DNA of 64,000 nt, taken from contig OY282446.1 in the NCBI GenBank assembly GCA_958295975.1, forward strand, positions 2,333,289 to 2,397,288. The letters are read 5' to 3'. The stretch is from Tepidiformaceae bacterium (lineage in GTDB: Bacteria > Chloroflexota > Dehalococcoidia > Tepidiformales > Tepidiformaceae). The position numbers and the translations under genes were made by a program. The number at the start of each line of letters is the position of its first letter. Position 1 is the stretch's first letter. Under the pieces are notes generated by a model. It ran no database searches. It was not told the origin of the DNA and was given only the letters and a program-made list of their open reading frames with translations. Positions 3,158 through 10,715 of the stretch are shown one piece after another.

Positions 3158-3934
3158 ATGAAGCTGGAAGGCAAGGTCGCCGCCGTCACGGGCGGCAGCC
3201 GCGGCATCGGGCGCGGCATCGTGGAGGCGTTCCTCGCGGAGGGCGCCAGCGTGGTCATGAACGGGCGCGACCCGGAGAAGGGCGAGCGCGCCCTCGCGGA
3301 GCTGGGGGCGGGCGAGCGCGCCGCCTTCATCGCGGGCGACGTGACCGAGGAACGGACGCTGATGGGGCTGGTGGACGGCGCCGTCGAGCGTTACGGGCGC
3401 ATCGACGTCCTCGTCAACAACGCGGGCGGCAGCCGCGGCTTCGCGCAGGTGGCGGAGATGGAGAACGAGGACTGGGACCACACCATCCGCTGGAACCTGT
3501 CGGCCACGTTCTGGGGGATCAAGCACGCCTTCCGCCACATGATTCCGCAGGAGAGCGGGCGCATCATCAACGTCTCCTCGCTGGAGGGGAAGCACGGCAA
3601 GCCCGGCATCGCCGCCTACGTGGCCGCGAAGCACGCCATCAACGGCCTCACCAAGAGCGCGGCGCAGGAGGTGGGCACGCTGGGCATCACCGTGAACGCC
3701 ATCTGCCCGGGGCTGATCGAGACCGACATCGTGAGGGAAAGCGGGGCCGCGGCGGCCGCCTCCATGGGCCTCACCTACGACGAGATGGTGCAGCGCTTCT
3801 CCGAGGAGTCCGCCATCAAGCGCATGAACACCGTCGAGGAGGTTGGCGCGGTGGCCGTGCTCCTCGCCTCCGATGTGGGCGCGGGCGTCACGGGCGCGCT
3901 CTGGTCGGTGGACGGCGGCACCGCCGCCTACTAG
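3158..3934 (+). CDS. SDR-family NAD(P)-dependent oxidoreductase
   Basis: A 258-residue classical short-chain dehydrogenase. It has the TGGSRGIGRG cofactor loop at residues 11-20, the NNAGG motif, a catalytic serine in NVSSLEG, the YVAAKHA (YxxxK) active site and CPGLIETD after strand 6. A C-terminal VDGGTAAY segment is typical of FabG-like enzymes. It would oxidise an alcohol or reduce a ketone or 3-oxoacyl group with NAD(P)H in the cytoplasm. The substrate is not evident. It ends 10 bases before the PEP-mobile gene, so the two are probably cotranscribed. The ATG follows GGGAGGGCG. Confidence 0.92.
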   Translation: MKLEGKVAAVTGGSRGIGRGIVEAFLAEGASVVMNGRDPEKGERALAELGAGERAAFIAGDVTEERTLMGLVDGAVERYGRIDVLVNNAGGSRGFAQVAEMENEDWDHTIRWNLSATFWGIKHAFRHMIPQESGRIINVSSLEGKHGKPGIAAYVAAKHAINGLTKSAAQEVGTLGITVNAICPGLIETDIVRESGAAAAASMGLTYDEMVQRFSEESAIKRMNTVEEVGAVAVLLASDVGAGVTGALWSVDGGTAAY

Positions 3935-7057: not shown

Positions 7058-8320
7058 TCAGGCGGGCTCGAACTCCAGCTCCAGGGACTTCACCGAGCGC
7101 ATGGCCACGCCCTCGCCCATGCGCGGGTTGCGCCCGGGCTTGATGCGAACGTCGCCGATGGCCTCCAGGATCATGCGCGAGCCGATCACCGCCTCCGTGC
7201 GCGCCAGCTGGTAGCCCACGCAGAAGTGCTTGCCCAGCCCGAAGCCGAGGTGGCTCGAGCGCCCGCCCTCGCGGTGGCCCACGCGCGTCTCCTTCCCGAA
7301 GTACAGGTCCTCGCGGAAGATGTCGAACGTCTCCGGCTCGGCGAAGACGCGCTCGTCGTGGTTGGCGGAGTGCATGGAGAGGTGCGCGACCGCGCCCGCG
7401 GGGATGGCCACGCCGCGCACGCGCGTCCCGCGCAGCGTCAGCCGCGGCTCGCCGCCGACCGGCCCGGAGTGGCGCATCGTCTCCGTGAAGGCGCGGTCCA
7501 GCAGGGCGTGGTCGCGCCGCACATCCGCGAACTGGTCGGGATGGTTGAGCAGCAGCCACCAGAGGTTGGCGATGGCCTTGTCCGTGGTCTCGCCGCCCGC
7601 CGTCAGCAGCAGGCTGGTGAAGGCCTTGACGTCGGGCGCGGAGAGCCGCTCGCCGTCCACCTCCGCCGCGCACAGCTTCGAGATGAGGTCGTCGCCCGGA
7701 TTCCGCAGCCGCTCGCGCACGAACGGCTCCAGGTACTCGTGGAACTCGCGGTTGGCCTCGATGCCCGCCTTCCGCAGCGCCGGATCGGGCGACAGCCCCG
7801 CGAGGAACGTCGGGTACCAGCGGCGGAAGCGGTCGTGGTCGGACTGGGGCAACGCGAGCATGTCCACGATCACGTTCACCGGCAGGCGCGCGCTGAACTG
7901 GTCCACGAGGTCCACCTCGCGCTTCGCCGCGAAGCCGTCCACCAGCTCGCGCGCGGCCTTCTCCGTGAAGCGCGTGACGAGCTCGCGCACATTGCGCTCG
8001 ACCACCGGCAGGAAGGCGTCCAGCCTGCGGCCCACGAACTCGGGCGCGACGATGGCGCGCTTGCGCGTGTGCTCGTCGCCATCCATGGCCGTCAGCGAGG
8101 GGCCGAAGACGGCGCTGTGGGACTGCTCCATGATGCTGCTGGAGAAGGTCTCGTGGTCGAGGAAGCCCGCGACCACGTCCTCGTAGCGCGTGATCCACCA
8201 GCTCCCGTCGCGCGGATGGCGCCAGACGGGATGCTCGTCGCGCAGCCGCCGCAGGGCCGGATACGGGTCCAGCCGGAACTCCTCCCCTTCCAGCAGACGC
8301 GGGTCGAACGGCTCAGCCAT
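7058..8320 (-). CDS. Cytochrome P450
   Basis: A 420-residue soluble bacterial P450. The I-helix oxygen-activation motif is LLLTAGGETTDKAI, the K-helix ExxR is in TETMRHS, and the haem ligand is Cys367 in LGFGLGKHFCVGYQLAR. It would hydroxylate a hydrophobic substrate with electrons from a ferredoxin/reductase pair; neither partner is encoded nearby. It starts at ATG 8320, four bases after the NYN-domain gene ends, which suggests cotranscription. The further upstream open frame is the shadow of that gene. Substrate unknown. Confidence 0.94.
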   Translation of the reverse strand: MAEPFDPRLLEGEEFRLDPYPALRRLRDEHPVWRHPRDGSWWITRYEDVVAGFLDHETFSSSIMEQSHSAVFGPSLTAMDGDEHTRKRAIVAPEFVGRRLDAFLPVVERNVRELVTRFTEKAARELVDGFAAKREVDLVDQFSARLPVNVIVDMLALPQSDHDRFRRWYPTFLAGLSPDPALRKAGIEANREFHEYLEPFVRERLRNPGDDLISKLCAAEVDGERLSAPDVKAFTSLLLTAGGETTDKAIANLWWLLLNHPDQFADVRRDHALLDRAFTETMRHSGPVGGEPRLTLRGTRVRGVAIPAGAVAHLSMHSANHDERVFAEPETFDIFREDLYFGKETRVGHREGGRSSHLGFGLGKHFCVGYQLARTEAVIGSRMILEAIGDVRIKPGRNPRMGEGVAMRSVKSLELEFEPA

Positions 8321-8324
8321 GGGG

Positions 8325-9023
8325 TCACTCCACGGCACGAGGATGCCTGATGCGCGGCAGGCCGTCGAGCAGCCCGTCGATGTGCTCGAAGAGCGTCGGG
8401 GACACGGTGCGCCCAAGCGGATCGAGGAAGAACTTGGCGCCCTCGCGCCGGGCCAGCTTGGCGGCGGGCACGAAGTCGGTATCGCCGGAGACGAGCACGA
8501 TGGCATCGGCCTGCCGCTTCAGCGTGATCGAGGCGATGTCGAGCCCGATGCGCATGTCCACGCCCTTCTGGCGCAGCGACGGGACGAAGTCGGCGTCGGA
8601 GAGCGGCAGGGCGGAAGCGTCCCCGTCCAGCAGCCGGTCCCGCGTCTCCCTCCGCAGGAGCCACCCCGGAGCGACTCCGACTTCCCCCAGCCGCACCGCG
8701 AAATAGCGCCGCCCGTGCAGCGCCTTGAACAGCCGCAGCCGGAATTGCGCCTCATCCGTGGCCGCGTGCTGGTACATCTCCCTGCTGACGGGCGTCTTGA
8801 TCCGCCGCCCGGACGGACGCGCATCATAGTAGAAACCGCGATAGAGCAGCTGGTAGCAGTCGGGAACCCGCCAGGTTTCGTTCAGCCGCTCCAGATGCCC
8901 GCGGACCAGCTGCTCAAGCAGATCCGCGACGGCTTCGGGAGCGGAGCGGTCCACATCGGGCACGAGCCCCGGCAAGCGCTTCAGGAAGTAGGCGCCGTCA
9001 ATGAGAATCGCCGTCTTGATCAT
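8325..9023 (-). CDS. NYN-domain (LabA/PIN-like) ribonuclease candidate
   Basis: A 232-residue protein of the NYN superfamily, relatives of PIN nucleases. It begins IKTAILIDGAYF with acidic Asp9. A GVDMRIGLDIASI segment and VLVSGDTDFVPAAKLARREG supply the other conserved acidic residues. Members cut RNA or, in some cyanobacteria, influence gene expression; the target is unknown. Start choice is uncertain: ATG 9023 gives the canonical N-terminus, while ATG 9038 would add five residues, and neither has a good ribosome site. A U-tract-terminated structured RNA lies immediately upstream, so expression may depend on terminator read-through. The P450 gene follows after four bases. Confidence 0.85.
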   Translation of the reverse strand: MIKTAILIDGAYFLKRLPGLVPDVDRSAPEAVADLLEQLVRGHLERLNETWRVPDCYQLLYRGFYYDARPSGRRIKTPVSREMYQHAATDEAQFRLRLFKALHGRRYFAVRLGEVGVAPGWLLRRETRDRLLDGDASALPLSDADFVPSLRQKGVDMRIGLDIASITLKRQADAIVLVSGDTDFVPAAKLARREGAKFFLDPLGRTVSPTLFEHIDGLLDGLPRIRHPRAVE

Positions 9024-9043
9024 CGGATGACCAGCCATGCAGG

Positions 9044-9118
9044 AAAAAAGCCCCAGAGGCCGGACTTGCTCACGAAAGCCGGCTGTGCCGGAAGCAAGGC
9101 GTACGCCTGGGGCAAGAC
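9044..9118 (-). ncRNA. Compact structured RNA with U-tract terminator upstream of the NYN gene
   Basis: The transcript expected from the promoter at 9125-9154 would fold into a closed multibranch structure. The outer stem pairs GCCCCAG (9113-9107) with CTGGGGC (9056-9050) and runs directly into UUUUUU (9049-9044). Inside it are the palindrome AGGCGTACGCCT and a stem CTTGCT/AGCAAG (9098-9093 with 9070-9065). That stem encloses a CCGGC-ACA-GCCGG hairpin (9091-9079). The terminator is thus the closing stem of the whole RNA. It may be a free small RNA of about 75 nt or a leader attenuator of the NYN gene 6-21 bases downstream. I do not recognise it as a known riboswitch. Boundaries are inferred. 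Confidence 0.5.
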
Positions 9119-9124
9119 TCTCCC

Positions 9125-9154
9125 ATGATGGGTCCCCGCGCGACGGTTTGTCAA
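9125..9154 (-). promoter_or_regulatory. Sigma70-type promoter for the structured RNA/NYN gene, overlapped by palindromes
   Basis: On the minus strand TTGACA (9154-9149) is separated by 18 bases from CATCAT (9130-9125). The -35 sits inside the palindrome GGTTTGACAAACC, flanked more widely by GACGGTT and AACCGTC. The -10 sits inside CCCATCATGGG. Such symmetry over both boxes suggests repressor or activator operators. This is the best full promoter in the window. Confidence 0.6.
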
Positions 9155-9223
9155 ACCCGCGCGAACCGTCCCGGGCGCAGGATACGCCGTCCATGCGGCG
9201 GGGAGCGGTACCCGCCCCTGCGC

Positions 9224-9236: not shown

Positions 9237-10715
9237 ATGCGCCCCGACGGCTCCCTGGCGCGCCGCATCCTCGAGCGGCTGCCGCTGGCGCTCTTCCTGC
9301 TCGCGCTGGCCGTCGGGCTGATCGCCTGCGGCATCGCCATCGAGCGCTACGACCTCTTCCCCAAACCCATCCTCTCGGCGGCGCTCAAGACCGCGCGGGC
9401 GACGCTGGAGAGCGCGCCCGCGGATACCGGCCAGTTCGCGGACTTCGCGGAAACCCCGCTGGACCGCATCCGGGAGCGGCGCATCGAGGTCGTCGAGGGG
9501 GACGCGCCGGGCAATGCCGTACTCGTCACGGGGGGACGCCACCAGTTCCGCGAACTGTGCCCCGAACACGGCTGCCTCGCCGTCGCCATCGCGCCTTCCG
9601 GCGAGATCGTCCACGCCTGGCCCTTCCGCCCCAACGCCATCCACGCCGCCAACATCGCAGACGAGGACGATTATCCCTACGAGCTGAACAACTTCGCCGC
9701 CGAACGGGACATGCACCTCACCGCCATCGAGCAGTACCGTAACGGCGATCTGCTGGTCACCTTCCACCTCACGAACGCCTTCCCCTATGCTGGCGGCGTC
9801 GCCCGCATCGACCGCAACGGCCATCCCCGCTGGTTCCGGCGCGACTACAGCCACCACTGGCCACGGCTCACGGACGGCGACGTTGCCCTCATTCCCGCCC
9901 TCGCCGTCGGCGACGACGCCCTCGAAGTGCCGAACGGAGACGAGGTCTTCACCTACTCCTGCGACGGCAGGGTCTACCGCAGCGTCCTCAACATCGTGGA
10001 TGGGGACGGTACCCTTCTCGAACGGATTCCCGTCCTCGACATGCTGCTCGCATCCCCCTGGAGCGGCGTGCTCATCGCGCCGCACGATCCCTGCGATCCC
10101 CTGCACCTCAACTCCATCGACGTCGTTGGGGAGAACGGGGGCGGCCTTGCCGGCGACATCGTCCTGTCCCTCCGCAACGTCAGCGCCTTCGCCATCCTCG
10201 ACGGCGAGACGCACGAGCTGAAGCGTCTCGTGCGCGGAACATTCGTCGGGCAGCACGACGTCACGCATTTGCGCGGCTCGACGTTCCTCATGTTCGACAA
10301 CCGGGGCGGCGACCGCACGGGCGGGCCGTCCCGCCTGCTCATGGTCGACCTCGCCACCGGAGTCGAGCGAACCGTGTTCCCCAACGACCGCACCCCGGAG
10401 GCCCTGCGGGGGCTCTATTCCCACAACCGAAGCGCCATCGATGTCTCGCCCGACGGGCGGCGGGCCATCGCCACGTTCGCGCACCCGGGCGTGGCCGTGG
10501 AGGTGCGCCTCGCCGACGGCGCCGTCCTTGCCGTCTTCCGTTCCCTCCACGATGTCTCCGGCCTCGACCAGTTCCCCGAGGAGCACCTCCACCGGGCGGC
10601 GAGGTTCATCCTGCAGGGCGTGGACTACTGGCGCGGCAGCGGCGCCGCGGCCGCCAGGCCGCCGCAGTCGCCCATGCGCTATCCTGTACGCGAGAGAGCG
10701 GGAGCGGAACCCTGA
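9237..10715 (+). CDS. Arylsulfotransferase (ASST) family protein, membrane-anchored
   Basis: A 492-residue protein. An N-terminal hydrophobic helix (about residues 14-34, LPLALFLLALAVGLIACG) should anchor it to the membrane with the rest outside. The body shows beta-propeller ASST signatures: HLNSIDVV, DIVLSLRNVSAFAILD, FVGQHDVTHLRG and FLMFDNRGG, with conserved histidines typical of a family that transfers sulfate between phenolic compounds through a sulfohistidine, without PAPS. The exact substrate is unknown and related proteins may not be sulfotransferases. It overlaps the next small membrane gene, and a PAPS-type sulfotransferase closes the same four-gene run. Confidence 0.82.
   Translation: MRPDGSLARRILERLPLALFLLALAVGLIACGIAIERYDLFPKPILSAALKTARATLESAPADTGQFADFAETPLDRIRERRIEVVEGDAPGNAVLVTGGRHQFRELCPEHGCLAVAIAPSGEIVHAWPFRPNAIHAANIADEDDYPYELNNFAAERDMHLTAIEQYRNGDLLVTFHLTNAFPYAGGVARIDRNGHPRWFRRDYSHHWPRLTDGDVALIPALAVGDDALEVPNGDEVFTYSCDGRVYRSVLNIVDGDGTLLERIPVLDMLLASPWSGVLIAPHDPCDPLHLNSIDVVGENGGGLAGDIVLSLRNVSAFAILDGETHELKRLVRGTFVGQHDVTHLRGSTFLMFDNRGGDRTGGPSRLLMVDLATGVERTVFPNDRTPEALRGLYSHNRSAIDVSPDGRRAIATFAHPGVAVEVRLADGAVLAVFRSLHDVSGLDQFPEEHLHRAARFILQGVDYWRGSGAAAARPPQSPMRYPVRERAGAEP

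Follow-up and report, generated by a model that had tools for sequence, protein, structure and literature searches.

The closest proven analogue of the locus analysed here is AbiF with RCd22 (RF03085), a type III toxin-antitoxin (TA)-like pair in which a prophage nuclease gene follows a structured ncRNA and a terminator, and in which the ncRNA, by binding the nuclease directly, neutralises it both in cis and in trans (PMC12373285). The type III TA systems ToxIN, CptIN, TenpIN and AbiQ also have the order promoter, RNA, leaky terminator and endoribonuclease gene, and they are likewise found on mobile elements and in phage defence. Among PIN toxins, VapC20 cuts the sarcin-ricin loop (PMC7180214); VapC20-type toxins have the PIN-like nuclease superfamily in common with NYN, but VapC is restrained by a protein antitoxin, unlike NYN, whose candidate partner is an RNA. 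Finally, one source counts Teg147, which is 60 nt long and has its own promoter, among the bona fide sRNAs of S. aureus (PMC5826253), while two others place it on a genomic island (PMC3053349) and report that its Rfam family, RF03535, was created in a course (PMC7779021). NYN is mentioned in none of the three passages.

The locus studied here lies in a stretch of 64,000 nucleotides (hereafter the window). It has the type III layout, with an RNA gene that carries a promoter and a terminator directly upstream of an endoribonuclease gene, and the arrangement is also that of AbiF and RCd22. However, AbiF is Abi_2/HEPN-like and not NYN, and RCd22 has two copies of its motif; the RF03085 model (abiF motif) gave no match at E-values up to 10 in three representative RNAs of our module. 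The toxin candidate of the module has a NYN/PIN fold, and its RNA is a single unit, whereas classical type III antitoxins are tandem repeats. No direct or tandem repeats were detected in the window RNA or in those of loci L098, L160 and L038, which counts against a classical type III reading.

The module joins two orphans, the protein family PHROG_5783 and a structured RNA for which the only Rfam entry is a Staphylococcus sRNA. It spans about ten phyla and also occurs in lambdoid prophages and on conjugative plasmids. With the two joined, direct tests become possible of what Teg147 does, and of what a common prophage accessory gene does. A literature search for NYN together with ncRNA or toxin-antitoxin, with bioRxiv and most subscription journals outside its coverage, returned nothing on an RNA-NYN pair. 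The RNA was already known as a narrow sRNA family (the Firmicutes branch); within the searchable literature, neither its breadth nor its partner gene appears to have been described before.

Promoter, RNA and NYN gene in the window

The features of the locus are listed below in the order of transcription, with their basis in brackets. R2 is the covariance model of the long-form RNAs described in the next section.

9149 to 9154, minus strand: -35 box TTGACA, inside the palindrome GGTTTGACAAACC (inverted repeat read from the sequence)
9125 to 9130, minus strand: -10 box CATCAT, with 4 of 6 matches to TATAAT, inside the palindrome CCCATCATGGG
9044 to 9118, minus strand: small structured RNA, a divergent member of the NYN-associated/Teg147-like family (R2 match and fold)
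9107 to 9113, minus strand: 5' arm of P1, GCCCCAG (sequence; P1 covaries among relatives)
9100 to 9106, minus strand: 5' side of the core internal loop, GCGTACG in the window and GCAGUACG in relatives (cmsearch alignment)
9093 to 9098, minus strand: 5' arm of P2, CTTGCT (sequence, fold, cmsearch alignment)
9079 to 9091, minus strand: P3 hairpin CCGGC-ACA-GCCGG, followed by the bulge CUUUCGUG, which is CGAUCAUG in relatives (fold, cmsearch alignment)
9065 to 9070, minus strand: 3' arm of P2, AGCAAG (sequence, fold, cmsearch alignment)
9057 to 9064, minus strand: 3' side of the core internal loop, TCCGGCCT in the window and GCCGAUCC or GCCGAACC in relatives (cmsearch alignment)
9050 to 9056, minus strand: 3' arm of P1, CTGGGGC, doubling as the terminator stem (sequence; covariation among relatives)
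9044 to 9049, minus strand: U6 tract, intrinsic terminator (sequence)
8325 to 9023, minus strand: NYN (PIN-like) RNase gene, 232 aa and stop, PHROG_5783 (Pfam PF01936, phrog_5783, predicted model)
7058 to 8321, minus strand: P450 gene downstream of NYN, kept in same-genus relatives that are without the RNA and NYN; it marks the insertion boundary

An earlier note on this DNA had described a promoter TTGACA-18-CATCAT with two overlapping palindromes, and we located it as claimed (minus strand, 9154-9125). The outer stem GCCCCAG/CTGGGGC running into U6, the CTTGCT/AGCAAG stem and the CCGGC-ACA-GCCGG hairpin of the same note were all found in their places. The spacer between the -35 and -10 boxes is 18 bases, and this promoter was the sole sigma70-like match in the first 20 kb of the window (shuffle mean 0.4). 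Two ATG codons, at 9038 and 9023, are candidate starts of NYN; homologues align from the ATG at 9023 (MIKTAILIDG), which lies 20 bases past the U-tract. The window RNA folds at -33.1 kcal/mol (z -2.0), only moderately better than shuffled sequences, 8 out of 200 shuffles being equally good. With a fold energy this modestly unusual, thermodynamics was insufficient to settle the case of the window RNA, and the comparative evidence was decisive.

The window NYN matched Pfam PF01936 with 34.1 bits (cut-off 24.2; E 5e-8) and the phrog_5783 profile with an E-value of 2e-63, while PADLOC and NCBIfam returned generic NYN matches only. The acidic residues D9, D156, D162, D181 and D183 occupy invariant columns of the alignment, and all of them are present in the window protein. 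The predicted structure (pLDDT 93) matched the NYN domain of MARF1 (Z 15.1) and VPA0982 (Z 14.5); ToxN and AbiQ are not among the structural matches listed, an absence that excludes nothing. No sequence relative was found in the PDB. PHROG_5783 is a phage protein family for which we know of no described function.

A family of RNAs upstream of NYN genes

We compared the best 80 NYN protein relatives from species genomes, which have about 41-60% identity to the window NYN. They came from Pseudomonadota, Acidobacteriota, Chloroflexota, Verrucomicrobiota, Hydrogenedentota, Myxococcota and others, according to record titles; the labels of MAGs, and their assemblies, can be wrong. The sequences upstream of these genes have one RNA in common, with the layout ATCCGCCCCnnGGCAGUACGCC - P2 - loop - GCCGAnCCnnGGGGC-U(n). 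Two covariance models were built: R1 from 36 short-form RNAs, and R2 from 29 long-form RNAs, which have the extra hairpin P3 and are typical of marine-host metagenome bins. The window was left out of R2. The window RNA was below detection by R1 (5.7 bits); R2 matched it at 9118-9047(-) with 35.8 bits and an E-value of 7.1e-9 over 64 kb, Infernal E-values being rough in this analysis. This was the best match and far above the next, so the window RNA is a member of the long-form branch. The proposal of the earlier note, a promoter-driven structured RNA with a terminator before a NYN RNase gene, proved right, and the interpretation in that note is supported in part; the loss of the core motif from the window copy, described below, was beyond what the note could recognise. 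On this comparative evidence, the window sequence holds a genuine RNA, one member of a large and conserved family.

R1 matched in 78 out of the 88 sources searched. Among the 79 genome loci, which were selected by NYN similarity (unbiased sampling being confined to the phylum scan described below), 75 had an R1 match directly upstream of NYN, and 39 of these 75 lay outside the training set. The median distance from the end of the RNA to the start of NYN was 28 bases for the R1 matches. In phage and prophage loci, 40 out of 72 had an R1 match upstream of NYN.

The Firmicutes branch of the family coincides with RF03535 (TEG147; Teg147/sRNA85), which is of the same length class (60 nt) as the NYN-associated RNAs. 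RF03535 matched NYN-upstream RNAs of Firmicutes phages at the same bases as R1. In particular, the RNA of L160 (2419-2479) scored 58.3 bits, above the gathering cut-off of 56.1, and nine more NYN-upstream RNAs scored below it, at 33.9-52.6 bits (including L120 with 52.6 and L153 with 46.2). At gathering cut-offs, Rfam matched none of these RNAs in 20 genome loci, and TEG147 surfaced in low-threshold scans only. The Rfam description is of a Staphylococcus small RNA, whereas the module is broader, and both the proteobacterial forms and the window form escape its model: RF03535 gave no match in window positions 9020-9180 even at E-values up to 10, nor in the whole genome. The window RNA differs from RF03535 in its extra P3 hairpin and its changed core.

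Compensatory changes and the conserved core

The covariation check upstream of homologous NYN genes, which the earlier note had proposed, succeeded strongly, and compensatory changes were abundant. The stems that they back are P1, together with its inner GG/CC extension, and P2. In all, 94.7% of cells were paired against 81.0% in shuffles, with 102 double changes against 23, and slid controls were all far lower. The long forms were analysed separately, and compensatory changes likewise support their stems. An independent set of phage-borne RNAs gave a similar picture, with 94.3% paired against 74.7% in shuffles and 90 double changes against 19.

The least variable part of the RNA is a non-helical internal loop that sits within the terminator stem, with AGUA on its 5' side in 77 out of 78 relatives and GA on its 3' side in 71 out of 78. 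AGUA facing GA agrees, at the level of the consensus, with the bulged-G motif (loop E, sarcin-ricin). The position flanking this core is often a C-C or A-C mismatch. According to the cmsearch alignment, the window RNA retains P1, P2 and P3, and its core reads C-GUA / GG, with the first A of AGUA deleted and GA changed to GG; the AGUA/GA core of the NYN-associated family is therefore missing from it. This loss makes the function of the window copy uncertain, and the copy is perhaps altered or decaying. The change may reflect decay, or co-evolution of NYN and RNA.

Linkage between the RNA and NYN

In an RNA-first scan of the window's phylum, 5 out of 400 genomes were R1-positive, and NYN was immediately downstream in all 5. 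Conversely, 31 out of 32 NYN-bearing genomes were R1-positive, 30 of them with exactly one match, at the NYN locus. A closed stem followed by a T-tract was present before 148 out of 160 distinct NYN genes, compared to 41% of shuffles and 25% of 199 control ORFs. The distances among the RNAs and among the NYN proteins were correlated (Mantel r 0.60; 0 of 999 permutations as high).

Some RNAs were found apart from an intact NYN. A second, intact RNA in a Latescibacteria genome (L248, 994-1071) is followed by a small ORF that resembles a type II antitoxin instead of NYN, and the other RNA copy of that genome (L073) precedes a NYN with in-frame stops. In L201, a second, diverged RNA of the family (3431-3487) lies between NYN and an apparent phage integrase start, with its own upstream inverted repeat. 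Stops were also present in the NYN of L059, L066, L071, L094 and L182, although L071 is perhaps just cut short, and L190 has a frameshift. At six loci with a broken NYN the upstream RNA looks intact; among all the loci named, R1 recognised it in every one except L182, which was judged by eye.

Mobility and genomic setting

The homology of the window with eight same-genus genomes ends at about 8308, at the start of the P450 gene, and neither the window NYN nor the RNA is present in any of the same-genus genomes. This comparison indicates that RNA and NYN are a lineage-specific insertion before the P450 gene. An arylsulfotransferase-like ORF (9237-10715), divergent from the NYN unit, has no homologue in 11 related genomes, and it may also have been acquired.

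The NYN family was found on plasmids in 166 records, mostly of Campylobacter, followed by Xanthomonas, Aeromonas, Helicobacter and Thermus, and the RNA-NYN pair is present on conjugative plasmids and in phages. In the lambdoid phages ev099 and Brookers the module comes directly after a CI-like repressor, and the site after the CI repressor is where accessory lysogeny genes, rex among them, are located. The ev099 unit was matched in about 5% of complete E. coli genomes, mostly by partial matches (e.g. EDL933). In the Streptococcus phage Javan85 the module lies between a regulator and the integrase, and in a Thermus plasmid (L116) its neighbours are a helicase on one side and an N-6 DNA methylase on the other, a setting that resembles an insertion into a defence island. 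Inverted repeats with arms of at least 7 bases were present at the promoter in 31% of the phage loci L125-L212, compared to 2.6% in shuffles; they are operator-like, lie 27-47 bases upstream of the RNA and vary in sequence between loci. The enrichment is found mainly in phage loci, and there was none in the window's own clade. Judged by this distribution, the module is mobile. Linkage, conserved structure, mobility and intact catalytic residues are, at the level of sequence, demonstrated.

Proposed role and alternative readings

By analogy with the described systems, we lean slightly towards the view that the RNA is one half of a mobile two-gene module in which a single-unit RNA restrains the NYN nuclease, in a type III TA-like or abortive-infection manner. 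The module would consist of an RNA of 60-80 nt with its own promoter, whose closing stem normally serves as the terminator, and of a PHROG_5783 RNase of NYN/PIN fold some 20-50 nt further on. The leaky terminator would ensure that the RNA outnumbers the nuclease mRNA, and the bulged-G-like internal loop (AGUA/GA) would bind and restrain NYN. Once freed, for example by a phage infection that halts host transcription, NYN would cut cellular or phage RNA. We infer the toxicity of NYN and the binding of RNA and protein from the analogous systems. The recurrence of the pair suggests a toxin or phage-defence unit under RNA control that has so far gone unrecognised, and NYN would add a nuclease fold to the RNA-controlled toxin and abortive-infection systems. 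The broken NYN genes with intact RNAs upstream count for an antitoxin-like module, but ordinary pseudogene decay could also be their cause. The window copy, with an intact NYN and an altered core, runs counter to a strict antitoxin model unless NYN and RNA have co-evolved.

The fold would be just as compatible with autoregulation, or with an RNA that serves as cofactor. NYN could be a non-toxin that binds or cuts its own leader, a terminator-embedded attenuator setting NYN expression, and both the nearly constant position of the RNA in cis, immediately upstream of NYN, and a terminator stem that normally belongs to the conserved structure would agree with this. We nevertheless consider it rather unlikely, given the mobile, phage-moron distribution, the separate core and terminator of the Campylobacter form, the copy without NYN in Latescibacteria, the second copy before the apparent integrase in L201 and the fact that Teg147 is classed among the sRNAs and has a promoter to itself (PMC5826253). 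The earlier note had offered a stand-alone small RNA, an attenuator and an RNA substrate of the nuclease side by side. The first is favoured by the listing of Teg147 as a bona fide 60-nt sRNA in that source, while a pure attenuator has become less likely because core and terminator form separate hairpins in the RNA of the Campylobacter plasmids, and because there are orphan copies of the RNA; the same separation and the copies without NYN (L248, L201) argue for a role of the RNA beyond attenuation. A substrate or partner of the nuclease would fit the near-exclusive linkage. Alternatively, the RNA could be a cofactor or guide, a required part of an active ribonucleoprotein and not an inhibitor (compare Cas13-like AbiF or Y RNA-like partners). 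Its near-exclusive linkage to NYN, a conserved non-helical core resembling a protein-binding motif and its co-divergence with the NYN protein would all fit, but the alignments have no obvious variable, spacer-like segment and the RNA is retained at loci where NYN is broken, so we regard this as unlikely, and somewhat more so than a leader.

We consider it improbable that the RNA mimics the sarcin-ricin loop of 23S rRNA, with NYN recognising the bulged-G AGUA/GA motif and, once freed, cutting that loop as VapC20 does, and with the sRNA acting as an active-site decoy. If true, an antitoxin system built on a single RNA unit would have spread through many phyla, phages and plasmids, and Teg147 of S. 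aureus would be an antitoxin that has survived. A small-molecule riboswitch would explain a conserved internal loop inside the terminator stem, and terminator-embedded aptamers do exist (HMP-PP class; PMC6478431); linkage to one nuclease gene and to no metabolic gene, a separable terminator and the mobility of the RNA in phages make it very unlikely. Hardly credible, finally, is an ordinary terminator, or NYN coding sequence read from the in-frame ATG at 9194. The ORF 9194-8325 is indeed open through the RNA and the fold exceeds shuffles only moderately, but homologues align from the ATG at 9023, and the reading is contradicted by covariation, with the R2 match (E 7e-9), the compensatory changes and the invariant AGUA loop.

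Other RNAs near NYN genes

Some NYN relatives (lambdoid ones, those of Aeromonas and Thermus, and probably those of actinobacterial phages) have upstream RNAs of the same layout that were R1-negative and were judged by eye. In the phage loci L163-L195, other RNAs of the same layout lie upstream of NYN (e.g. ATCCGCTACGCCCGTAGGCGGGCA with a separate terminator), and these probably represent additional classes of RNA, each going with clades of NYN. An RNA on the Campylobacter pTet plasmid was considered as an orphan without NYN and rejected, as it is a truncated remnant that lacks the 5' half of the core; in both pTet loci (L249, L250) the remnant follows a large SNF2-type gene, NYN is lost and the tet(O) region adjoins. 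In Herbaspirillum (L083, 1562-1653), we also found a C4 antisense RNA, which is a phage immunity RNA; the module follows about 350 bases downstream of it.
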